From contig CAMOYA010000014.1 in the NCBI GenBank assembly GCA_946629635.1, positions 1 to 32,311 of the forward strand: 32,311 bases of DNA, in the 5' to 3' direction. Positions 3,121-13,949 of this stretch are shown one piece after another (position 1 is the first letter of the stretch; each line of letters starts with the position of its first letter). Both the position numbers and the translations under genes were made by a program. Below the pieces are notes generated by a model. The model had not been told where the DNA came from. It ran no database searches and was given only the letters and a program-made list of their open reading frames with translations. The stretch comes from an uncultured Clostridia bacterium (GTDB lineage: Bacteria > Bacillota > Clostridia > Christensenellales > Aristaeellaceae).

Positions 3121-5187
3121 TTACTGAACGCTGGAGGTGTAGTAGTCCAGCAGGTCTTCCCACGCCATTTCCTTGATGTCCAGATACTGGGCGCCGCCCA
3201 TGGTATCCGCCACATAGTTGGCAGCATCCGCCGGAGAGGTCATTCCCTCGAGGGTGAAGCCCTTGGCGATGATGTCGACCAGCGCGTTCTGGCTGTCCTT
3301 GGCGGTTCCGAACTTCTCGGTCAGGTCAGTCAGGTTGCCCAGCGCCTGGTTGTCTTCCTTGGTGGTCGGCAGAACGGTGGGCACGGAGGTGTACCACGGG
3401 AGTTCCGCGATCGCCAGTTCGGGATGATGGATCGTTCCCAGCGCGATGGCCGTGGAGATCTTGCCGGCGCCTTCCTTGCCGACTTCGTGCGTGCACTGAT
3501 ACTCGAACGCCTGGCTCTTCATGAAGCTCAGCGTGGAGCCCAGGTACTGACGGGCGTAGTTGGTGTAGTTGCCGCTGGCCTTCTCCCACAGTTCAGCATA
3601 GGTCGCATCCGCGATCACGGGCATTTCCTTGCCGTTGAACATGAAGGTTTCGCCTTCCTTGCGGAACGCTTCGGGACCATAGCTCATCATGATGGTGCCT
3701 TCTTCGGAGTAGGCATAGTCGATCAGGGCGAGCGCAGCGTTCAGCTTGTTGGTGTCGCTGCCGACGCCGGCCTTGGAGATTCCCCAGCCGTCGGTCTTCA
3801 CGGAACGCCAGCTCTCGGTGAACCGCATGTAGACGCCGTCGTCAGAGGTGCCGTCATACCAATGGGCCACGGGAACCATAACCGCCATGTACTTTTCACC
3901 GGCCGCATTGTCCAGCTTGGTCTTGTTGTAAACGGTCTGGGTCTGGTTGTAGTCATAGTGCATGAAGCCCAGGTCGTTCTCCAGATAGTTTTCAGTCTTG
4001 ACTTCCTCGCCATTGATGAAAGCGGTGGAGATCAGGCCCTCCTGAACCAGCGCATTCATCCGGCCCAGGGCTTCATAGGTCGCTTCTTCCTGGCGGGCAT
4101 CATGCAGCATGTTGTCAGCGCCGATGTACAGGTAATCCTGACGGGATTCGAGGCCGCGCACGCCGAACAGGGTGCCGGCAAAGCGGAACATATCCGCGCG
4201 GCGGGAGGTGTTGTTTTCCTCGCGGCTGAACAGGCCTTCGATCTTGTCGGTGCCGTTCAGGGTCTGGGGATTCGCAACGACGCAGCGCAGCAGAGCGACC
4301 AGCTCATCCGCATCCCACGCAGCATTCTGTCCCATGTACAGGTTGCTGCGGGCGGTGCCATAGTATCCGTTGTAGGTCTTGTCGATGTATTCGCGCAGCA
4401 TGTTGACCGCGGCGACGCCGTTCAGCGGCGCTTCATTCATCTTCGCGATGATGTTGCCGAACGCATCGTAGTCCTTGGTCACGGTTTCCACCGCGGTGCC
4501 TTCCAGGTTGGGGGTTTCGATCTCAACCTTGCCGCTGGTGGGCATGTAGGGCGTATAAACGGCAGCGCTCAGATCCTTGCAGGCATCGGCGGTGAATTCG
4601 CCTTCGCCGTCCAGCAGCTTCTGGATCCAGTCCACGCGCATCAGGGGCATCTTTTCGATGTCGTTCACGCCGTCGAAATAGGGGCTGAAGTAGATCGCGC
4701 CGTTCTCCACGTTACCGGTGATGGACAGCTTGACGATGGGGTTGGCATCCAGATAGGCCTTGAAGTTGGGCATCTGATCCAGATATTCGCCGATGTTGAC
4801 CAGCAGGCCGGCTTCACCGTTCTCGCTCAGCACAGCAGCGGTACCGCTCAGCATGTCCACCTGATCCAGCTGCTCTTTCCAGTACTCAAATTCCTTGGCG
4901 GCACTGTTGCCCTGATATTTGTCCTCGATGGTGATGCCCAGGAGTTCCTGAACCGCCACCCAGGTGGGCTTGAAGTCGCCGGAATTGTAGGTCTTGCCGT
5001 CGGCCAGGGTCACGCCATCCTTGGCGACTTCCGGGTCGAACCGCAGACCGGTCTTGGAGTTGTTGTAGCCGACTGCCATGCGCAGCACGGTTCCCTTTTC
5101 ATAGGGCAGGGAGCTTTCGGCGGAGACCAGGCTGACCATGGAAAGCAGCATGGCCAGCGCCAAAACCAGGGAAATGATTTTCTTCAT
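3121..5187 (-). CDS. Extracellular solute-binding protein of CUT1 sugar ABC importer (large LipO/YtcQ-like type)
   Basis: A 688-residue exported binding protein that would deliver an oligosaccharide to the permeases encoded just upstream. Residues 1-23 are a signal peptide ending VSA, with no lipobox cysteine, so signal peptidase I cleavage is expected and surface retention is unexplained. The size is well above the 400-450 residues of simple sugar-binding proteins and fits the large binding proteins paired with LplB/LplC-like permeases, several of which handle pectic or other oligosaccharides. The middle is rich in aromatic residues, as expected for sugar stacking. The start has a GGAGG site 11 bp upstream. 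Neighbouring GH28, KduI and KduD genes suggest a galacturonate-containing ligand, but this is inference. Confidence 0.92.
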   Translation of the reverse strand: MKKIISLVLALAMLLSMVSLVSAESSLPYEKGTVLRMAVGYNNSKTGLRFDPEVAKDGVTLADGKTYNSGDFKPTWVAVQELLGITIEDKYQGNSAAKEFEYWKEQLDQVDMLSGTAAVLSENGEAGLLVNIGEYLDQMPNFKAYLDANPIVKLSITGNVENGAIYFSPYFDGVNDIEKMPLMRVDWIQKLLDGEGEFTADACKDLSAAVYTPYMPTSGKVEIETPNLEGTAVETVTKDYDAFGNIIAKMNEAPLNGVAAVNMLREYIDKTYNGYYGTARSNLYMGQNAAWDADELVALLRCVVANPQTLNGTDKIEGLFSREENNTSRRADMFRFAGTLFGVRGLESRQDYLYIGADNMLHDARQEEATYEALGRMNALVQEGLISTAFINGEEVKTENYLENDLGFMHYDYNQTQTVYNKTKLDNAAGEKYMAVMVPVAHWYDGTSDDGVYMRFTESWRSVKTDGWGISKAGVGSDTNKLNAALALIDYAYSEEGTIMMSYGPEAFRKEGETFMFNGKEMPVIADATYAELWEKASGNYTNYARQYLGSTLSFMKSQAFEYQCTHEVGKEGAGKISTAIALGTIHHPELAIAELPWYTSVPTVLPTTKEDNQALGNLTDLTEKFGTAKDSQNALVDIIAKGFTLEGMTSPADAANYVADTMGGAQYLDIKEMAWEDLLDYYTSSVQ

Positions 5188-5243
5188 TGTGGGGTTTTCC
5201 TCCTTTTATTTTTTTGCAGGGCCGCGCCCCGCGGGATAGCGTT

Positions 5244-6134
5244 TTATTCCTTCACGCCGCCGGCATTTGCGCCCTTGGCGAAGTACTTCTGAATAAACGG
5301 ATAGATGATCAGGATCGGAATAATCGAACATACGATCAGCGCGTAGATCATGGAGTCCGGCGCGTATACCCTGTTCCAGCCGGTCATCTGATCCGGGTCG
5401 GTGTACATTTCCAGCTGCAGACGGATGAACACCTGCAGGGGATGCTCGTTCTGGTTGCTGATCATCTGCCGCGCCCAGAAATAACCGTTCCAGCGGCTGA
5501 TGGCGAAGAACAGCGCCACCGTGGCAATCGTGCTCTTGCTCATCGGAATGTAAACCTTGCTCAGTACCTGGAATTCGGAAGCGCCGTCCACAATGGCGGC
5601 CTCTTCGATTTCGCTCGGCACGTTTTCAAAGGCGTTCCGCAGCAGGATGATGTTCATCGCCGCCATACCCATGGCGATGACCACCAGCCATTTGTCATCC
5701 ATAATGCCGATGGACTGGAACACCTTCTGGGTATCCAGGTAGTTCAGGTACTGCGGGATAATACCGGCGCTGAACCACATGGTGAACACCAGAAAGAAGT
5801 TGAACGTTTTCCGGAACAGCAGCCGCTTCTTGCTCAGGGCATAGGCGCCGAGAATGGAGATTCCCAGAGCCCAGATCGTGCCGTACAGCGTCAGGAACAG
5901 CGTGTTGCTGTAGGAGTTCCAGAACATGTTGTTCTGAAACATCGAGGAAAACGCTTCAAACTGGATATCCTTCGGGAACAGGATCACTTCGCTGTATTCC
6001 ACGGCATGCGCGCCGGAAATGGACGCGGACACCGCGTATACGAAGGGATACAGGCACAGCAGCGCGAATACCGTCAGCAGCACGTAGCTGAGAACTTTGA
6101 AGATCAGTTCGGAGATCTCGAGTTTTCTTTTCAT
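5244..6134 (-). CDS. Sugar ABC importer permease, LplC/MalG-like
   Basis: A 296-residue inner-membrane permease with six predicted helices, the usual size for the MalG side of CUT1 importers. The cytoplasmic EAA loop that docks to the ATPase is clear: EIEEAAIVDGAS followed by PMSKSTIA, near residues 183-208. The C-terminus ends in FAKGANAGGVKE, a tail typical of LplC/YtcP-like permeases (KGxxxGxVKG-like). The ATG at 6134 has GGGAGAGG upstream. It is 16 bp after the partner permease and 56 bp before the binding-protein gene. The reaction is ATP-driven import of the ligand captured by the binding protein. Confidence 0.95.
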   Translation of the reverse strand: MKRKLEISELIFKVLSYVLLTVFALLCLYPFVYAVSASISGAHAVEYSEVILFPKDIQFEAFSSMFQNNMFWNSYSNTLFLTLYGTIWALGISILGAYALSKKRLLFRKTFNFFLVFTMWFSAGIIPQYLNYLDTQKVFQSIGIMDDKWLVVIAMGMAAMNIILLRNAFENVPSEIEEAAIVDGASEFQVLSKVYIPMSKSTIATVALFFAISRWNGYFWARQMISNQNEHPLQVFIRLQLEMYTDPDQMTGWNRVYAPDSMIYALIVCSIIPILIIYPFIQKYFAKGANAGGVKE

Positions 6135-6150
6135 GCGAACCTCTCCCTTC

Positions 6151-7206
6151 TCAGTAGAGCGATGTGTTGGCTGCCTTGCGGGCGATGGTGTTGGCGCCGA
6201 TCACCAGCAGCATGCCGACCACGTTGTTCATCATTTCCGCCGCGCTGGCGATTCCCGTGCCCGCGCCGCCGCCCAGGCCGGTCCGATAGGCCAGGGTGGA
6301 AATCACGTCCGCCGTCACATAGGTCTTGGTGTTGTACAGCAGCAATACCTTTTCATAGCCGATGTTCAGCAGGGAACCGATCCGGGTGATCAGCATGATC
6401 ACAATCGTGGACAGGATGCTGGGCAGCACCACATATCTCATCTGCGCCCACTTGCCGGCGCCGTCAATCTGCGCGGCCTCATAGCTCGTCGGCGAAATGG
6501 AAATGATCGCAGCGAAGAATACGATACTTCCGTATCCGGCTTCCTCCCAGATACCGCTGATCTGATAAATCGCGCGGAAATAATCCGGATTATTCAGAAG
6601 GCCTGCGTTGCCGACCTCCTTCGAGATCAGCCCCAGTCCGCTCAGCGCCTGGCTCACAATACCCATCTGACCGATGATGGAACCCTGCTTGACCAGCATG
6701 GTCACCAGGGAGGTCATGACGACCGTGGACATGAACTTCGGAAGATAGGTCATGACCTGCAGCGCGCTGCGAACCGCATTGGAACGGACTTCATTGAAGA
6801 ACAGCGCCAGGATGATCGGCATCGGGAAACCGAAGCACAGACCATAGAAGCTCAGCAGGAAGGTGTTCCGCATGGCCATCCAGAAGTTCTGGCTCAGGCT
6901 GTCGCCTCCGACCAGCAGCCGCTTGAAGTAGCTGAATCCGGAGAACAGCTGGTCATTCACGGGAACGACCGCGTCGGTCACCTTGAAGCAGCCGAGCAGC
7001 TCATACATCGGAAAATACCGCCAGAACAGGAAGACCAGCAGCATCGGCACGAGCATGACGTAAAGACGCCAGTCCTTTACAATGGTGCGGCCAACGTTCA
7101 GCCAGTAATGCTTCTCCACGTCATCCCGAACGACCTGTTCCGGGTTTTCATGATAGGTGCCGCTGACCGGATCCAGAACCAGATAATCCGCCGCTCTCCC
7201 TTTCAT
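6151..7206 (-). CDS. Sugar ABC importer permease, LplB/MalF-like
   Basis: A 351-residue permease with a 45-residue hydrophilic N-terminal extension before the first helix and about six membrane helices after it. The EAA loop reads SYEAAQIDGAGKWAQMRYVVLP (shortened here to SYEAAQIDGAG) in the C-terminal third. The C-terminus (ARKAANTSLY) matches the usual ending of LplB-like permeases. The ATG at 7206 overlaps the stop of the upstream gene in an ATGA arrangement (7203-7206) and has a GAAGGAGG site. It forms the heterodimeric channel with the permease at 5244-6134. The extended charged N-terminus is somewhat longer than usual in this family. Confidence 0.94.
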   Translation of the reverse strand: MKGRAADYLVLDPVSGTYHENPEQVVRDDVEKHYWLNVGRTIVKDWRLYVMLVPMLLVFLFWRYFPMYELLGCFKVTDAVVPVNDQLFSGFSYFKRLLVGGDSLSQNFWMAMRNTFLLSFYGLCFGFPMPIILALFFNEVRSNAVRSALQVMTYLPKFMSTVVMTSLVTMLVKQGSIIGQMGIVSQALSGLGLISKEVGNAGLLNNPDYFRAIYQISGIWEEAGYGSIVFFAAIISISPTSYEAAQIDGAGKWAQMRYVVLPSILSTIVIMLITRIGSLLNIGYEKVLLLYNTKTYVTADVISTLAYRTGLGGGAGTGIASAAEMMNNVVGMLLVIGANTIARKAANTSLY

Positions 7207-7793
7207 TGAAATCCTCCTTCTTTCTCGCGCTGCTCACTCAGCCGCTTCAGATAATGTCTCTGATCCTCCAGCATGCCGTCCAGCCGGGCGACGATCCAGA
7301 GAATCACCAGGGTAAAGATGTAACTGATGACATCCGTGGTAATGAAACCCAGGGCTACCGCAGGGCTCGCTCCGAAGAGGAGGGAGATCAGCCCCCGCCC
7401 GACCTGCATGCCCAGCAGAACGAGCGCCCCGTACAGGAAATTGACCAGCACGTTCTCCTTCAGCTTCCGCCAGCCCCACTTCTTCAGCAGGGGGAGTACC
7501 GCCAGCCCGGCCAGATTGCCGACCCCGTAGATCACGTACTGATTCAGGCCGCCCCGCGATGTCAGCACGAAGACGATCCCGCCCAGTACCGCATGAATCC
7601 CCGCCCAGGGTCCCCACCGGACCATCACGATCGCCGTGATGGCCGACACGGCGGAAACCGTCCATGCCTCCTTGGGAAACCACTGCGTCGCCGCCCGGAC
7701 GATCACCGTTTCAAACACCATGAGGATCAGCGCGAACAGGGACAGATCGATTGCCCGGTATTTTTCCGTTGTCATTTGCCCCTGCACACGCAT
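7203..7793 (-). CDS. Membrane protein resembling an ECF-transporter S component, first gene of the importer operon
   Basis: A 196-residue hydrophobic protein with five or six predicted helices. The first helix starts after residue 13, a segment WGPWAGIHAVLGGIVF lies near residue 60, and NQYVIYGVGNLAGL follows near residue 85. Length, helix number and the glycine-rich middle resemble the substrate-specific S components of energy-coupling-factor transporters, but I see no decisive signature. The last 30 residues are charged and probably cytoplasmic. The ATG at 7793 has GGAGGAG just upstream with a short 3-nt spacing; an ATG at 7775 with AGGGG is an alternative. It is the first gene after the promoter at 7836-7864 and overlaps the permease gene by 4 bp, so it belongs to the importer operon. 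Finding such a protein beside CUT1 permeases is odd. Confidence 0.6.
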   Translation of the reverse strand: MRVQGQMTTEKYRAIDLSLFALILMVFETVIVRAATQWFPKEAWTVSAVSAITAIVMVRWGPWAGIHAVLGGIVFVLTSRGGLNQYVIYGVGNLAGLAVLPLLKKWGWRKLKENVLVNFLYGALVLLGMQVGRGLISLLFGASPAVALGFITTDVISYIFTLVILWIVARLDGMLEDQRHYLKRLSEQREKEGGFQ

Positions 7794-7835
7794 TCTCCTC
7801 CGGCATTTGGCCTTTTTGTCCTGAATTTCTCAATT

Positions 7836-7864
7836 ATTATACATGTTTCTTTCGCCATTCGTAA
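7836..7864 (-). promoter_or_regulatory. Sigma-A-like promoter of the region 1 importer operon
   Basis: On the minus strand a TTACGA element (7859-7864) is spaced 17 bp from a perfect TATAAT (7836-7841). It lies about 40 bp upstream of the start at 7793 and after the stop of kduD (7936). The -35 element is weak, so an activator or a relief-of-repression mechanism is possible. No obvious palindromic operator was found near it. Confidence 0.65.
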
Positions 7865-7935
7865 AGGGGAAATTTCCAGCATTTACTGATTTCAGTTCAA
7901 AAAGTTCCCATGCGGGCATACATATTGCCTGATTC

Positions 7936-8733
7936 TTAAGGCTGTTTGCCGATATAAGCCAGAATGCCGCCGTCCACATACAGAATATGGCCGTTCACGA
8001 AGTTGCTGGCATCGCTGGCCAGGAACACCGCCGGTCCCTGCAGATCCTCCGGAGATCCCCACCGGGCCGCGGGCGTCTTCGCGATAATAAACTGGTCAAA
8101 GGGATGGCGGCTGCCGTCGGGCTGCTTCTCCCGCAGCGGAGCGGTCTGAGGTGTTGCGATGTATCCCGGTCCGATACCGTTGCACTGGATGTTGTGCTCG
8201 CCATACTCGGAGCAGATATTCCGGGTCAGCATCTTCAGGCCGCCCTTGGCCGCCGCGTAGGCGGAAACGGTTTCCCGGCCCAGCTCACTCATCATGCTGC
8301 AGATATTGATGATCTTGCCATGGCCCTTTTTGATCATGGCAGGGATCACGGCCTTGGCGCAGATGAAGGGAGCGTTCAGGTCCACATCGATTACCTTCCG
8401 GAATTCGGCGGCGCTCATCTCAATCATCGGAATCCGGCGGATGATGCCGGCATTGTTCACGAGGATATCCACCACGCCGACTTCCGCTTCGATCTTTTTG
8501 ACCAGCTCCTGAACCGCTTCCTCATTGGTCACATCGCATACATAGCCATGCGCCCGGATGTTCTTCTCCGCATAGGCCTTCAGGCCCTTGTCCACCAGCT
8601 CCTGGTTGATGTCGTTGAAAACGATGGTCGCACCGGCCGCCGCGTAGGCTTCCGCGATCGCGAATCCGATCCCGTAGCTGGCCCCGGTAATCCAGGCAAT
8701 CTTCCCCTGCAGGCTGAAATCGTTCATGTTCAT
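7936..8733 (-). CDS. kduD: 2-dehydro-3-deoxy-D-gluconate 5-dehydrogenase KduD
   Basis: A 265-residue cytoplasmic short-chain dehydrogenase that interconverts 2,5-diketo-3-deoxygluconate and 2-keto-3-deoxygluconate, the second step after KduI in unsaturated uronate breakdown. It shows the Rossmann motif TGASYGIG (16-23), NNAG (93-96), Ser146 and the catalytic pair Tyr159 and Lys163 (YAAAK). The C-terminus has DGG as in the family. The reading frame is open to 8808, but the ATG at 8733 is preceded by AAGGAGGAGG at a good distance, so I start there. It is 107 bp downstream of kduI. Identification rests on the family pattern plus kduI next door; a related SDR is the alternative. Confidence 0.88.
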   Translation of the reverse strand: MNMNDFSLQGKIAWITGASYGIGFAIAEAYAAAGATIVFNDINQELVDKGLKAYAEKNIRAHGYVCDVTNEEAVQELVKKIEAEVGVVDILVNNAGIIRRIPMIEMSAAEFRKVIDVDLNAPFICAKAVIPAMIKKGHGKIINICSMMSELGRETVSAYAAAKGGLKMLTRNICSEYGEHNIQCNGIGPGYIATPQTAPLREKQPDGSRHPFDQFIIAKTPAARWGSPEDLQGPAVFLASDASNFVNGHILYVDGGILAYIGKQP

Positions 8734-8788
8734 CGTAAATACCCTCCTCCTTGTTTTGCATTCATTACAGACTAACGCCGCCCCTTCC

Positions 8789-8815
8789 GTCCCGGATGCC
8801 GCATGCATCCGGGAC
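8789..8815 (-). other. Intercistronic hairpin between kduI and kduD
   Basis: A perfect 11-bp inverted repeat (GTCCCGGATGC and its complement) with a 5-nt loop lies in the 107-bp gap between kduI and kduD. No T-tract follows it on the minus strand, so it is more likely an mRNA processing or stability element than a terminator. Confidence 0.55.
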
Positions 8816-8840
8816 AGGGACGATCGGAAAGCCCCCTGTT

Positions 8841-9683
8841 TTATCTCAGCTCGGTCGTCGGAATCGTGTCCATATCATCGAATTCCTGGTTTTCCCCGCC
8901 CATGGCCCAGATAAATGTATAATTGCTCGTTCCCGCGCCCGCGTGGATCGACCAGCTGGGAGATATCACCGCCTGCTCGTTCTGCATCACGATGTGCCGT
9001 GTCTCCTGGCCTTCGCCCATCATATGGAATACCACGTTATCCTTCGGCACTTCAAAATAGAAGTACACTTCCATTCTCCGCTCATGGGTGTGCGCCGGCA
9101 TCGTGTTCCACACGCTGCCGCTGTCCAGCACGGTCATGCCCATGCTCAGCTGACAGGTCTTCAGCACGGAGGGGTGAATGAACTGGTTGATCACGCGCCT
9201 GTTGCTGGTCGCCGCGTCGCCGCAGGGCTTCTTCGCCGCATCCGCAATCCTGATCAGCCGGTTCTCATAGCTGCAGTGCGCCGGCGCGGAAACGATATAG
9301 AATTTCGCGGGCTTGGAGGCATCCGCGCTCTGGAAATAAACTTCCTTCGCGCCCTTGGTGATGTACAGGCAGTCCTTATAATCCAGTTCATACACCGTGC
9401 CATCCACCGTTACGCATCCGGCACCGCCCACGTTGAACATGCCGCATTCCCGGCGTTCCAGGAAAAACTTCGTCCCGAAGTTGTGCCAGATGTCGATTCC
9501 CTTGTCGATGCTCACTTTTTCGTTCACCGGCATGATGCCCATCGTTACCATCCGGTCCACATGGCTGTATACCACTTCGACCGTGTCCGGCGTGAAGAGC
9601 TTCTCAATCAGAAACTCCTTCCGGGTTTCCTCCGTAGTGTACCGTTTGAAATCCCGCTGGTTGCAGCTGTAACGAATATCCAT
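8841..9683 (-). CDS. kduI: 5-dehydro-4-deoxy-D-glucuronate isomerase KduI
   Basis: A 280-residue cytoplasmic cupin that isomerises 5-keto-4-deoxyuronate to 2,5-diketo-3-deoxygluconate in pectin or glycosaminoglycan breakdown. The length fits the family (about 278). The zinc ligands known from the E. coli enzyme (His196, His198, Glu203, His245) are present at a constant +2 offset as His198 and His200 (AHTHERR), Glu205 and His247. The N-terminal MDIRYSCNQRDFKRY is also characteristic. The ATG at 9683 has GAAGGAGAG upstream. It is 62 bp downstream of the GH28 gene and transcribed with it. Highly confident. Confidence 0.96.
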   Translation of the reverse strand: MDIRYSCNQRDFKRYTTEETRKEFLIEKLFTPDTVEVVYSHVDRMVTMGIMPVNEKVSIDKGIDIWHNFGTKFFLERRECGMFNVGGAGCVTVDGTVYELDYKDCLYITKGAKEVYFQSADASKPAKFYIVSAPAHCSYENRLIRIADAAKKPCGDAATSNRRVINQFIHPSVLKTCQLSMGMTVLDSGSVWNTMPAHTHERRMEVYFYFEVPKDNVVFHMMGEGQETRHIVMQNEQAVISPSWSIHAGAGTSNYTFIWAMGGENQEFDDMDTIPTTELR

Positions 9684-9745
9684 ATGAATCTCTCCTTCAT
9701 TTATCTTTCAACCCGCCCGAACCTCCGTCCGGAGCGAAGCGAAAT

Positions 9746-11296
9746 TCATTTTTCCTCAACGCTTCCGACCTCGATCGCCTCAACCGGTTCTCCTTCAATG
9801 CCCTTCATCCGCACATTCTTCAGCGTTACTTTGTCCACATACCGGAGCACCAGTCCCCTCCGGCAGCATTCCTCGACGCCCTCCGCCATGGCCGGAACCA
9901 GCGGTTCCGCTTCCGGATCGAAATCGAATTCGCAGTCCTTCAGGACAAGATGCTCCACCGGCTGTTCCGGAAGCCCCAGCGCGTATACCACGCAGGCTTT
10001 GCACCCTTCCGCCTTTACCCGCTCAAAATGAATCGTCCCGATGCGGGGCGTCGTCTCATCCACCGGTTGCTTTTCCCGGCTCTGCACCCTCTCGCTGTGC
10101 CCGTCCGGATCGCAGAAGTACATACAGTTGACCGTGATGGGCATCTTCACCCCATCCATCCGGATATCCTCGAACAGGATGTCGTCAATCACCCCGTCCC
10201 TGCCCCGGTCGCGCCGGGTCTTGATCCGAAGGGCCCGGTCATTTCCCCGCATGACACAGTGGTGCGCATGAACCTTTTTCACACCGCCGGCCATTTCGCT
10301 TCCCAGCGTGACACCGCCGTGCCCGTCGAGCATCGCGCACCAGCCAATCTCGATGTTCTCGCTGGCGCGCCGATATTTCCTGCCCAAAGCGATCTTTCCG
10401 CTCTTGATGGCAATGCAGTCATCCCCGACGGAAATCTCCGAACCCAGAAGCCGCACGTTCCGGCAGCTTTCCGGATCGAACCCGTCCGTATTCGGGCTGT
10501 CCCACGGCGCCTTCACGCGGATATCGATGAAATCCAGATCGTCGCTGAAGGCAGGATGCAGGTTCCATGCGGGGCTGTTCATGAAGGTGATGCCCTGTAC
10601 GGTGATGTTTCTGCACCGCTGGGTATACAGCAGGTTGCCCCGCCGGGCAATCCGCTTCTCCTTCGGCTTCACCCACCAGTCTGCTTCGCCGCCCCGGCCA
10701 TCCACAATGCCCTCTCCGATGATCGCGATATCCTCTGAATCGATGGCGGTCAGCGCACCGGCGAACCCGTCCTCCCTGTTTCCTTCCCACATGCCCAGGA
10801 GGATTTCCCCGTCCTCATTGTTGGCCGCGGTTTCCCCGGGAAGGACCGGAAAGCGCGTCCGGTCCGGAATCATCCGCAGGGCAGCGCCTTCCGCGATTTC
10901 AAAAGTCATGTGGCTCTTGAGAAACAGCGGACCCGTGGAGTAATCCCCTTCCGGAACCAGCACGCGCCCCCCGGCAGGACAGCACATGATCGCCGCCTGA
11001 ATCATGGGAGTATCGTCATTCTCCCCGTCGCCCTTCGCACCGAAGTCCCGCACGTTCAGCACGCAGACCTCTTCCCTGGTCCGGAAGGTCAGCTGCTCGG
11101 TCTCTCCGTTCTCCGTCCGGCTTTCAAGCTCATATTCCGTATCCGGTTCCAGGTCGAACAGAGAGGCCACAGACCGGTACTCTTCGCCGATTTCCTCTCC
11201 GTCCAGCCAAAGCGTTCTTTTCTCCCCGGATTCATAAAAGCCTTCCGGATCCAGCAGCACGCTGATGCTTCGGGATGAGATGTACAATACCTGCAT
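9746..11296 (-). CDS. Intracellular GH28 polygalacturonase (exo-type or digalacturonase-like)
   Basis: A 516-residue glycoside hydrolase family 28 enzyme that should hydrolyse alpha-1,4-linked galacturonides. The catalytic motifs are intact: NTD (269-271) in SPNTDGFD, GDD (291-293), GHGG (325-328) and RIK (357-359). No signal peptide is present, so it probably acts in the cytoplasm on imported oligogalacturonides. Residues 1-78 look like a small beta-sandwich (fibronectin-III-like) domain ending before the helix start VRDFGAKGDG, a layout seen in bacterial exo-polygalacturonases. It heads the operon with kduI and kduD behind the promoter at 11422-11450. Exact product (mono- or digalacturonate) cannot be read from sequence. 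Confidence 0.93.
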   Translation of the reverse strand: MQVLYISSRSISVLLDPEGFYESGEKRTLWLDGEEIGEEYRSVASLFDLEPDTEYELESRTENGETEQLTFRTREEVCVLNVRDFGAKGDGENDDTPMIQAAIMCCPAGGRVLVPEGDYSTGPLFLKSHMTFEIAEGAALRMIPDRTRFPVLPGETAANNEDGEILLGMWEGNREDGFAGALTAIDSEDIAIIGEGIVDGRGGEADWWVKPKEKRIARRGNLLYTQRCRNITVQGITFMNSPAWNLHPAFSDDLDFIDIRVKAPWDSPNTDGFDPESCRNVRLLGSEISVGDDCIAIKSGKIALGRKYRRASENIEIGWCAMLDGHGGVTLGSEMAGGVKKVHAHHCVMRGNDRALRIKTRRDRGRDGVIDDILFEDIRMDGVKMPITVNCMYFCDPDGHSERVQSREKQPVDETTPRIGTIHFERVKAEGCKACVVYALGLPEQPVEHLVLKDCEFDFDPEAEPLVPAMAEGVEECCRRGLVLRYVDKVTLKNVRMKGIEGEPVEAIEVGSVEEK

Positions 11297-11560: not shown

Positions 11561-12514
11561 CTATTTTTCAATGACTTCAAAGCTTCCCAGGCAGCGGACC
11601 CCTTCCATGGCATCAAGCTCCGCCAGAAGATCCTCTGCCAGGCCGGATTCATCCGTCACCTCAATGATATAGTGATACGTCCCCAGCCGGCTTCCTTCCG
11701 GGCGGTCATGAATCGTAACCAGTTCCACGCCCGTGCTGTGGATCCCGATGATAATATCGTCGATCAGGCTGGCTTCGCAGCTGGCGATCAGGACACCGTT
11801 CGTCCGCGCTGTTCCCTCCTCCGTCAGCCGGGAAGCGGCAAGCACATAAAACCTGGTTTTGTTCGCGTCGCTGATCTGCACATTCTCCGCCAGTACCGAA
11901 AGCCCGTACTGTTCGGCGGCACCCGGTGAAGCGATCGCCGCGAGGGTTCTGTCTCCTGCTTCCGAAACATAACTGGCCGCTGCCGCAGTGCTGGCCATCT
12001 CCTGTACAGCCGCATCCGGAAGGTGTTCCTCTCTCCACACGGCGCTTTGCGCAATTCCCTGCGCATGAGAGCAAATCGTTTGAATGTCTTCGATGGATGT
12101 TCCCGGCAGCGCCATGAGGGTCTGGCTGATTGGAAGAATCACTTCTCCAACCACATACATGTCCGTTTCTGCGATCAGCGCGTCAATATACTGGGTGACA
12201 GCACCTCCCAGCGTATTTTCCTGCGGAATCACCGCGTAATCGGCATTCCCTGCTTTCACATCAGCAATCGCATCCGGAACGGAATTCCTGGGCTGGAAAA
12301 TCCCGTTGGAAAAGAACAGCCGGGCTGCCTCCTCCGTGTAGGTTCCTGCCGGTCCCAGATAGCTGACCCGGGGATTGTCCGCGATTCCAGCGGATGCCGG
12401 ATCTGAAAGCGCAGCGGTTTCGAAGTTTCCGCCTGCGGTGCCGCAGGCTGCCGAAAGTCTGCAAAGCACCAGAATGACCAGCAGATATACAGCTGCTTTC
12501 TTTGTTCTTCCCAT
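11561..12514 (-). CDS. Exported or lipid-anchored prephenate dehydratase-like protein with ACT domain
   Basis: A 317-residue PheA-type protein: prephenate dehydratase domain at about 48-228 and ACT domain at about 237-315. The domain start VSYLGPAGTYTEEAA is typical. The residues needed for catalysis in E. coli PheA are all kept: Asn100 (PQEN), Ser149, Gln152 and Gln156 (SHAQGIAQ), and Thr220 in TRF. What is odd is the N-terminus: MGRTKK, a hydrophobic run to residue 23, Cys24 and then a 20-residue Ala/Ser/Gly/Asp-rich linker, which looks like a lipoprotein signal (although SAAC is not a perfect lipobox). Prephenate dehydratase normally works in the cytoplasm. The ATG at 12514 has GAGGAGG; an earlier ATG at 12556 lacks a site. 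It could be an extracytoplasmic enzyme or an aromatic-ligand binding protein. Confidence 0.88.
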   Translation of the reverse strand: MGRTKKAAVYLLVILVLCRLSAACGTAGGNFETAALSDPASAGIADNPRVSYLGPAGTYTEEAARLFFSNGIFQPRNSVPDAIADVKAGNADYAVIPQENTLGGAVTQYIDALIAETDMYVVGEVILPISQTLMALPGTSIEDIQTICSHAQGIAQSAVWREEHLPDAAVQEMASTAAAASYVSEAGDRTLAAIASPGAAEQYGLSVLAENVQISDANKTRFYVLAASRLTEEGTARTNGVLIASCEASLIDDIIIGIHSTGVELVTIHDRPEGSRLGTYHYIIEVTDESGLAEDLLAELDAMEGVRCLGSFEVIEK

Positions 12515-12592
12515 CTCAGAAGCCTCCTCAACTGTCCGGATGCCGCCTGAATGCACATCCGTTTCTTTTTCTTCACCCTGGCTGTTTTCATG

Positions 12593-12621
12593 ATTATATC
12601 ATATGAAACCGATACTGAAAA
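12593..12621 (-). promoter_or_regulatory. Promoter of the exported prephenate dehydratase-like gene
   Basis: TTTTCA (12616-12621) and TATAAT (12593-12598) are 17 bp apart on the minus strand, and TGA directly before the TATAAT makes an extended -10. It is back-to-back with the plus-strand promoter at 12631-12659. Confidence 0.65.
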
Positions 12622-12680: not shown

Positions 12681-13000
12681 GTGATTGCATTGGGCCTCCA
12701 CCGTTCAATTTCACTGATCCTGAATCTGGTTCTGATCCTGCTCTTTGGCGGGATCCCGGGGACGCACTTTTCGTTCATACGGACGGCGTACCGGAAAGCG
12801 CAGATCCTTCCGGCTCCTTCTGGGGCATGGACCGGCTGGAGAAGGCATTGAATCAGGCGCCGGCGCTTCCGCCGGAAGACCTGGTACACAGGATTCGCAG
12901 GGATATTGCCACCTTCGTTTCCGGCGCGGAGCAGTTTGACGATCTGACGATGATGTGCATGGAATACCGCGGAGAAAATGCATCAGGCGCGGAAACATAA
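12681..13000 (+). pseudogene. Relic of a SpoIIE/RsbU-type PP2C phosphatase gene with internal deletion and frame change
   Basis: From a probable TTG start at 12690 (site AAGGAAAG) the sequence reads LGLHRSISLILNLVLILLFGG, a membrane-anchor-like N-terminus. At about 12750-12765 the frame changes. In the next frame the last 80 residues match the end of a SpoIIE-type phosphatase: GDALFVHTDGVPES, a conserved FWGMDRLEKAL, and SGAEQFDDLTMM, which carries the DD metal ligands of the PP2C fold. The several hundred residues expected between the anchor and the C-terminal core are absent. An open frame from 12551 covers the C-terminal part but its upstream portion is not protein-like. I infer an internal deletion that joined the two ends out of frame. 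No function is expected from the relic. Confidence 0.75.
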
Positions 13001-13034
13001 CAGCACCGACAGGGCAGAATCGAACAGAATCGGT

Positions 13035-13063
13035 TTGCAAGCCCCGCCGCTTTGCGGTAAAAT
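13035..13063 (+). promoter_or_regulatory. Promoter of the secreted metallo-beta-lactamase-fold gene
   Basis: TTGCAA (13035-13040) lies 17 bp from TAAAAT (13058-13063), about 30 bp before the start codon at 13095. Confidence 0.55.
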
Positions 13064-13094
13064 GGGTTTGAAAATGTTTCAGGAGGGCAGGCAT

Positions 13095-13949
13095 ATGAGA
13101 AGGCTTTCCGGATTTCTGCTGGCATTGCTGACAGTGTTCAGCATGACAGCGGGCGAAGCGCCGGCGAAGGCGGAGTCAAAGGAGCTCTCGCTGCTTTCCA
13201 TCAACGTTCGGAAGGCGGATGCGCACCTGCTGCGCTGCGGACAAAGCGTATACCTGATCGACACCGGAGAGAAAAAGTATTTTGAAACGCTGTACCGGGT
13301 ACTGAAGGAAAACGCGGTCGGGCGGATCGACGGCGTGATCCTGACGCATTCCCATTCGGATCATACCGGCGGCCTGAAAAAGCTGATGGACTCCGATATC
13401 ACAGTGGATCATGTGTATACAACCGCGTACTGGGCGCCGAAGAAGGAGGGGCAGAAAAATCCGGTCCTCAATGCCCTGAAGAATACCGGAATCGAGCCCG
13501 TTTATCTGAAATCGGGAGACACCCTGCCACTGGACGGCGGTGACATCACCGTGATCGGGCCCCTGGCGGAACAGACGGATCCGGATAACGAGAACAGCAA
13601 TTCCCTGGTGCTGCGCGTGACGGGCGGCGGGGGAAGCATGCTGCTGACAGGAGACATGGAATTTCCGGAGGAGGAAAGCCTGCTGGGCGCCGGGCTGATC
13701 GAACATTCGGATGTGATCAAGATCGGCAACCACGGAGAAGGCGACGCTACGAGTGAAGCGCTGATCGATGCGGTATCCCCTTCCCTGGCGGTGATCTCCA
13801 CCAACACGGCGGATGAGCCGGACACGCCGGATCCCCGGGTGATGCGGCTGCTGAACAGCCGGGGCATCACCGTTGTGCAGACCCAGGAGTCGGAAAAGGG
13901 AATTCTGGTCACGATCCGGGACGGAGAAATCAGCTTCACAAAGCAATAA
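13095..13949 (+). CDS. Secreted ComEC-C-terminal-like metallo-beta-lactamase-fold protein
   Basis: A 284-residue exported hydrolase-fold protein. The signal peptide spans about residues 1-26 (ending AKA). The mature part starts directly with a metallo-beta-lactamase fold: HSHSDH at 85-90 (in LTHSHSDHTGG) gives the HxHxDH metal site, Asp187 (LTGDME) and His213 (GNHGE) supply later ligands. This resembles the stand-alone relatives of the ComEC C-terminal domain (COG2333), not classical beta-lactamases, and may hydrolyse phosphoesters or nucleic-acid-derived substrates outside the cell. The ATG at 13095 has AGGAGGG at 7 bp; the frame is open further upstream but without a site. The downstream gene follows after 84 bp. 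A paralogous type of protein is encoded at 29794-30675. Confidence 0.88.
   Translation: MRRLSGFLLALLTVFSMTAGEAPAKAESKELSLLSINVRKADAHLLRCGQSVYLIDTGEKKYFETLYRVLKENAVGRIDGVILTHSHSDHTGGLKKLMDSDITVDHVYTTAYWAPKKEGQKNPVLNALKNTGIEPVYLKSGDTLPLDGGDITVIGPLAEQTDPDNENSNSLVLRVTGGGGSMLLTGDMEFPEEESLLGAGLIEHSDVIKIGNHGEGDATSEALIDAVSPSLAVISTNTADEPDTPDPRVMRLLNSRGITVVQTQESEKGILVTIRDGEISFTKQ

Follow-up and report, generated by a model that had tools for sequence, protein, structure and literature searches.

The stretch of DNA analyzed here, referred to as the window, has a length of 32,311 nucleotides and carries on its reverse strand (11561..12514) the gene of a putatively exported prephenate dehydratase (PDT)-ACT protein, P0001, whose translation comprises 317 residues without an internal stop. 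The N-terminus resembles a signal peptide (residues 1–23; 12446..12514, reverse strand as for all parts of this gene) with a charged start and a hydrophobic core, and is recognized by the crude signal rule described below. It is followed by the codon of Cys24 (12443..12445), a predicted lipidation site in the sequence S-A-A-C that is invariant in five aligned members of the clade, and by a low-complexity linker (residues 25–48; 12371..12442) with low block pLDDT and no invariant columns. The PDT catalytic domain (residues 50–227; 11834..12367) matched PF00800 with 183.7 bits (gathering score 25.2; E-value 3.7e-54). Column counts cover its E99-N100 pair in a PQENT motif (12215..12220), the catalytic segment S149-H150-A-Q152-G-I-A-Q156 (12047..12070), and the motif T220-R221-F222 (TRF; 11849..11857). 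An ACT-like domain (approximately residues 239–316; 11567..11800), placed by alignment and the structure model, has altered ligand motifs, with H269-D-R-P272 (11699..11710) replacing ESRP; it had no Pfam match, PF00800 being the sole match of P0001 at an E-value of 0.001 or better. An earlier note on this DNA had described a signal-like N-terminus with Cys24 and a linker ahead of a complete PDT-ACT protein retaining Asn100, Ser149, Gln156 and Thr220-Arg-Phe, and all of these are present in the translation at the same positions.

A Shine-Dalgarno sequence, GAGGAGG (12523..12529, reverse strand), is located 8 nt 5′ of the ATG at 12514, and approximately 80 bp upstream of the gene a consensus match suggests a sigma-70-like promoter (12593..12621, reverse strand; TTTTCA-17-TATAAT with TG before the second hexamer, 10 of 12 consensus matches). 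The frame also offers a longer GTG start, which is not needed to explain the gene. Divergent from the gene lies what remains of the C-terminal end of a SpoIIE-type phosphatase gene (12752..12967, forward strand; PF07228 positions 121–191 of 192, 6.1e-13); the initial two thirds of the domain are missing, and the assignment of this remnant to the PDT system is weak. Positions 12978-13949 (forward strand) encode a metallo-beta-lactamase-fold protein (PF00753), which by eye shows a signal-like segment downstream of an internal Met. On the other side, positions 3121-11296 (reverse strand) contain what we take to be a pectin/uronate uptake and breakdown-like cluster with polygalacturonase-, KduI- and KduD-like genes and an ABC transporter.

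Judging from its sequence, P0001 is a deviant branch of PF00800. It scored 207.1 bits against PRK11898, below the equivalog cut-off of 219 bits, as did seven further PDT-bearing proteins among ten scored (177.1–199.0 bits), so that all eight exported members tested miss the NCBIfam PDT equivalog. The solute-binding-protein family 3 domain that would mark a PheC-type enzyme was not detected in P0001 by Pfam. An AlphaFold2 model built from five sequences reached a mean pLDDT of 78.5, with low values for the signal and the linker (block pLDDT 30–35 over residues 21–40), and contains the strands and helices of the ACT-like region. In an alignment of 12 members, the first invariant column does not appear before residue 51. 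The best PDB matches of the model were PDT structures (TM 0.70–0.72 by query length). The PDT fold is akin to that of type II periplasmic binding proteins, and the model also resembled, weakly, binding proteins and the sensor domains of BvgS and EvgS.

A search profile built from 12 members yielded 39 matches in 38 of the 308 genomes of the window's family, representing 9 of its 50 genera (1e-70). None of 397 genomes sampled elsewhere in the phylum contained a clade member (1e-60), and an order-wide draw of 396 genomes returned only four matches, all inside the window's family. Four named MAGs carrying an exported PDT were retrieved by a pattern-based scan. Two of them are labelled Erysipelotrichaceae by their records and have a GC content of 0.42–0.45, the median over the family's loci being 0.60. 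The dataset of 43 members thus consists of the window copy, 38 further copies in the family's genomes, and the four MAG copies. This spread is a lower bound, since the profile counts refer to 1e-70 or 1e-60 only and the MAGs stem from one pattern-based scan. Viral carriage was rejected on the basis of a pattern-based scan of viral contigs, which returned 21 stretches and no relative. Several contigs end near the gene, and in one member (L112) the contig end has removed most of the ACT domain.

Among the loci obtained by a search for 100 relatives and by the MAG scan, the score to P0001 falls from 321 to 135 bits between exported and other PDTs. A tree was constructed from the 43 exported and 61 cytoplasmic-type PDTs; the latter set, also used for the column counts, holds one domain of at least 200 residues per locus with duplicates dropped, and the control set for the signal analysis contains 65 sequences. 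The exported PDTs form a single clade (support 100/100) on a long stem of 2.66 changes per column, and its sister row is a cytoplasmic-type PDT of the same order (L022; support 96/95). Bootstrap values are rough, the tree contains long branches, and many forks within the exported group stay open. The window copy groups with L105, L047 and the Erysipelotrichaceae and Ruminiclostridium MAGs, and L038, which belongs to the window's genus, groups with copies from other genera; the remaining members of that genus were not placed by the tree. These mixed-lineage groupings suggest that the exported PDT has been transferred between lineages.

Export signals were assessed by a crude rule, which asks for a charged start and a 10-residue hydropathy of at least 1.8 near a start codon. 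In clade and control alike, every start codon upstream of the PDT domain was considered and the best one taken. For the window copy the hydropathy was 3.35 and the net charge +3, with a lipobox-like Cys at position 24. The rule recognized 42 of the 43 clade members but only 3 of the 65 cytoplasmic-type PDTs, and two of these three pass from a start lying over 100 codons inside the frame. The one clade member missed (L047) has its first Met far upstream in a long upstream frame; a hydrophobic stretch and a LAAC lipobox are visible in it by eye. Four members (window, L048, L050 and L100) have a lipobox Cys by rule, L047 has one by eye, and those of L049 and L105 are atypical; all seven fall within one eight-member subclade (support 100/99). 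The M-G-C of L101 and L103 is ambiguous as a lipobox. Most members without a lipobox resemble type-I signals by eye, and in many the AxA-like site runs almost directly into the PDT domain. Lipid anchoring therefore appears to characterize the window's subclade and not the whole family.

Could the protein be cytoplasmic, with a wrongly assigned start producing a spurious hydrophobic N-terminus? Conservation of the N-terminal sequence is poor, and export is predicted here from a sequence rule. Nevertheless, the Shine-Dalgarno sequence sits at the ATG, all 43 members have a signal-like N-terminus (42 recognized by the rule, one by eye) versus 3 of 65 controls, and the phosphatases fused to some members (see below) have unfused relatives that, by eye, begin signal-like too. 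We thus consider a cytoplasmic protein very improbable. A mis-start of P0001, which the earlier note had named among the findings that would speak against export, was rejected on account of the Shine-Dalgarno sequence 8 nt before the ATG and of the homologues, which share the signal and none of which starts at the PDT domain. Export of P0001, though a prediction, is strongly supported by the signals throughout the clade.

The catalytic residues E99, N100, S149, Q152, Q156, T176, T220, R221 and F222 are present in 43 of 43 exported PDTs, and E99 and N100 also in all 61 cytoplasmic PDTs. Residues beside them (Q98, T101, S157, S175, Y223) are altered as a set. Q98 occurs in all exported and in none of the cytoplasmic sequences, as do Y223 and R161; S175 is found in 43/43 versus 2/61, and S157 in all exported members, where all 61 cytoplasmic PDTs have Cys. 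That Cys157 is lost would be in keeping with an oxidising environment. A cysteine pair, C148 and C246, is present with each residue in 39 of 43 members; a disulphide between them was rejected, as L050 lacks the first only and L109–L111 lack the second only. In the ACT domain, where GALV and ESRP are the ligand motifs for feedback by Phe, the Gly of the GALV motif is retained in 3/43 exported versus 60/61 cytoplasmic PDTs, the window copy having Ser. The HDRP that replaces ESRP is largely conserved (H269 in 42/43, D270 in 41/43), compared with E in 56/61 and S in 59/61 of the cytoplasmic PDTs. Changes in ESRP are reported to desensitise the PDT of E. coli to aromatic amino acids (PMC11980547). 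The sister row L022 already reads HARP at this site, and the ACT motif change may thus be older than export. The ratio dN/dS was approximately 0.08 between the window copy and L047, at a dS of 1.83 that is near saturation, and 0.07–0.19 between L087 and L090; by these sequence comparisons, the gene is under purifying selection.

The genome of the window (2.07 Mb in 130 contigs, 87% complete) contains two PDT genes, P0001 and a chorismate mutase (CM)-PDT-ACT gene on contig 79, and its single CM_2 match lies in the same frame as the latter PDT. The second pheA for which the earlier note had suggested looking is thus present as a CM-PDT. A separate CM-PDT was found in 35 of the 38 genomes bearing the exported PDT, and a housekeeping role of the exported copy was rejected for this reason. 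The 38 genomes contain 36 CM_2 matches: 35 agree with the other PDT in contig and open-frame length, and the 36th (G053:C8, L143) shows nothing signal-like at its start by eye. An exported chorismate mutase was thus not found among these 36 matches and was rejected as a partner. If prephenate is the substrate, it would therefore come from outside or leak from the cell. Three genomes (G273, G287 and G325; loci L092, L095 and L099) have the exported PDT only and no CM_2 match; they possibly represent Phe auxotrophs or assembly gaps.

Nine of the 43 exported PDTs are fused to an exported-type phosphatase. HAD-PDT order occurs in L039, L040 and L099, PDT-HAD order in L101 and L103, and PDT-histidine phosphatase fusions in L082, L109, L110 and L111. 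The fusions were called by Pfam except in L039, whose HAD scored 26.6 bits, just under the Pfam cut-off of 27, and in L040, where it was placed by a local profile alone. Such a phosphatase gene lies within 6 kb at nine more loci, giving a total of 18/43, or 12 loci after collapsing sister loci, which inflate such counts (L039/L040, L087/L090, L093/L096, L101/L103, L109–L111). HAD proteins were found at 12 of the 43 loci (5 fused, 7 near) versus 0.33 of 43 expected by chance from the 73 HAD matches of this type in the 38 genomes; the HAD and histidine phosphatase profiles were built from five and four PDT-fused copies, respectively, and the fused cases are thus not independent. His_Phos_2 was matched in 14 of 61 genomes, and three histidine phosphatases tested were nearest to the glucose-1-phosphatase/inositol phosphatase family, below its cut-off. 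In the window genome, HAD and histidine phosphatase genes of these kinds occur once each, on contigs other than that of the window, and no such phosphatase or transporter adjoins the PDT gene in the window.

Fusions of the HAD and histidine phosphatase modules to one another and to DUF3089 also occur, so their link to the PDT does not have to reflect a shared pathway; the PDT seems to be a further component of a secreted toolkit whose parts are shuffled. Secreted-type proteins combining HAD, histidine acid phosphatase and DUF3089 modules in varied orders were identified by local profiles, and by Pfam on L144, L145 and L148, at L144 2523-5801, L145 1560-4847 (reverse strand), L147 1436-3817 (reverse strand), L148 2467-4881, L149 2254-4653, L150 2079-4124 and L151 1377-3638 (reverse strand). 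Two exported PDTs have other N-terminal extensions. In L034 (8396-9050), a 218-residue part beginning HYEHDPR had no match in Pfam or PDB, and in L105 (8069-9799) the PDT stands behind a region of approximately 310 residues with sub-threshold likeness to phytase-like and SMP-30 families.

Other neighbours vary between loci, and a fixed operon around the exported PDT was thus rejected. An amino-acid ABC importer directly precedes the PDT in L087 (by Pfam) and L090 (by clustering), with a binding-protein/permease fusion, an ATPase and the PDT in one run, and related transporter genes are nearby in L091 and L107. Carbohydrate-enzyme neighbours occur, as a raw count, at L033, L035, L040, L049, L105 and the window. 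In L033 (6921-9845), a rhamnogalacturonan lyase gene overlaps the start of the exported PDT by four bases, which suggests translational coupling of the two.

Signalling genes adjoin the PDT at 7 of the 43 loci, in addition to the SpoIIE remnant of the window. In L101, L102 and L103, a histidine kinase and a response regulator directly precede it (Pfam on L103, the rest clustered); L099 has a histidine kinase after the PDT, the genes before it in L093 and L096 are HATPase_c_2, STAS and one without a match (Pfam on L096, L093 clustered), and in L082 a STAS gene is divergent from it. These neighbours, the window remnant and the weak structural likeness of the model to binding proteins and the BvgS and EvgS sensor domains would fit an extracytoplasmic receptor, in which the PDT fold binds an aromatic ligand at the cell surface and reports through the neighbouring regulators while catalysis is slow or vestigial. 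Against it, invariance of the catalytic residues in 43/43 members is unexpected for a pure binder, the signalling neighbours are confined to the loci named, and no membrane anchor exists besides the lipobox, which most members lack. A receptor is in our view unlikely. The earlier note had proposed either an extracytoplasmic enzyme or an aromatic-ligand sensor or binding lipoprotein. Export is supported on the sequence level, and of the two branches we favour the enzyme over a pure sensor, since the catalytic set shows no drift and some members are fused to other enzymes. Against an enzymatic function, the rewritten ACT motif may cost activity, as a mutation did in EqPdt, a secreted PDT of powdery mildew, where replacing the Asn of its NSRP motif abolished activity (PMC11980547).

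The residues changed near the catalytic ones and the long stem of the clade indicate that the substrate may not be prephenate. The protein could then be a changed catalyst, for example an N-acyl homoserine lactone (AHL) acylase like GqqA of Komagataeibacter europaeus or a non-aromatising prephenate enzyme. GqqA has a PDT-ACT fold and combines PDT activity with the cleavage of AHLs (PMC8192741), its structure (7am0) matched our model as well as those of ordinary PDTs (TM 0.71–0.72, 26–27% identity), and the set-wise replacement beside the catalytic residues and the fusion to other hydrolases would also agree with a new reaction. By sequence, however, GqqA is far from being the closest (69 bits versus 121 bits for 4lub), and the canonical PDT residues are kept in the exported clade. 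We regard a changed catalyst as a rather improbable but live alternative. GqqA further differs from the exported PDTs in being an AHL acylase and in that the main text of its report does not use the term signal peptide (PMC8192741).

The reading that we favour, and hold to be slightly more probable than not, is an exported, feedback-free PDT that acts outside the cell within a secreted enzyme toolkit, its activity and substrate both being predictions. Such an enzyme would convert prephenate, arogenate or a close analogue outside the cell to phenylpyruvate (or Phe), the substrate coming from the lysis of microbes or plant cells, or from overflow of the cell itself. It would be free of feedback control and constitute one module of a toolkit that includes acid phosphatases. 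The product might be taken up, consistent with the amino-acid ABC importer next to some members, or alternatively be read as a lysis cue, consistent with the signalling genes next to others.

Compared with the cytoplasmic PheA-type PDTs (PF00800, PRK11898), the clade has the same fold, domain order and catalytic residues including TRF, but differs by the signal, the mostly replaced GALV and ESRP motifs, and the NCBIfam score below the cut-off. The exported dehydratases described in bacteria in PMC10520331 belong to the PheC family, and that study, which calls the export of shikimate-pathway enzymes an enigma, favours signalling over biosynthesis for the exported fusions of chorismate mutase and cyclohexadienyl dehydratase (CM-CDT). 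PheC and these fusions share with our clade the export, the retention of a separate cytoplasmic CM-PDT and the lack of feedback, which was measured there and is predicted here, and transporter or signal-related neighbours are found in some CM-CDT loci as they are next to exported PDTs (PMC10520331). By analogy, the exported PDT may work like PheC. Yet PheC is related to solute-binding proteins whereas the exported PDT belongs to PF00800, and the CM-CDT fusions are proteobacterial and joined to chorismate mutase whereas the exported PDTs are joined to phosphatases (PMC10520331). EqPdt is a counterpart, a PDT with an ACT domain, the TRF motif and NSRP in place of ESRP, which is uninhibited by aromatic amino acids and acts outside the producing cell; it differs in that it is fungal, is described as having no signal peptide, acts inside plant cells and works with a secreted chorismate mutase (PMC11980547). 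Among the literature matches listed, which comprised titles and abstract beginnings with subscription papers and preprints outside this scope, there was no exported bacterial PheA-type PDT, and the novelty of the clade is provisional.

More tentatively, and as a possibility that we do not expect to hold in full, the clade may represent a secreted, feedback-free PDT module of single origin that moves among gut Firmicutes lineages and forms, together with two unrelated phosphatase folds, an exchangeable component of a surface toolkit, where it would turn intermediates spilled from lysed neighbours or plant cells, possibly including a substrate other than prephenate, into a nutrient or into a signal for partner-switching or two-component systems. 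The clade is known from rumen and gut bacteria, and nearly all genomes bearing it have kept an ordinary intracellular PDT. A bacterial PDT of the PheA type that carries a signal, has its feedback site rewritten and is repeatedly fused to secreted-type phosphatases would be an independent instance of an exported dehydratase. The protein is small enough for an immediate assay, which could show whether spilled intermediates are salvaged or lysis is sensed in the gut.
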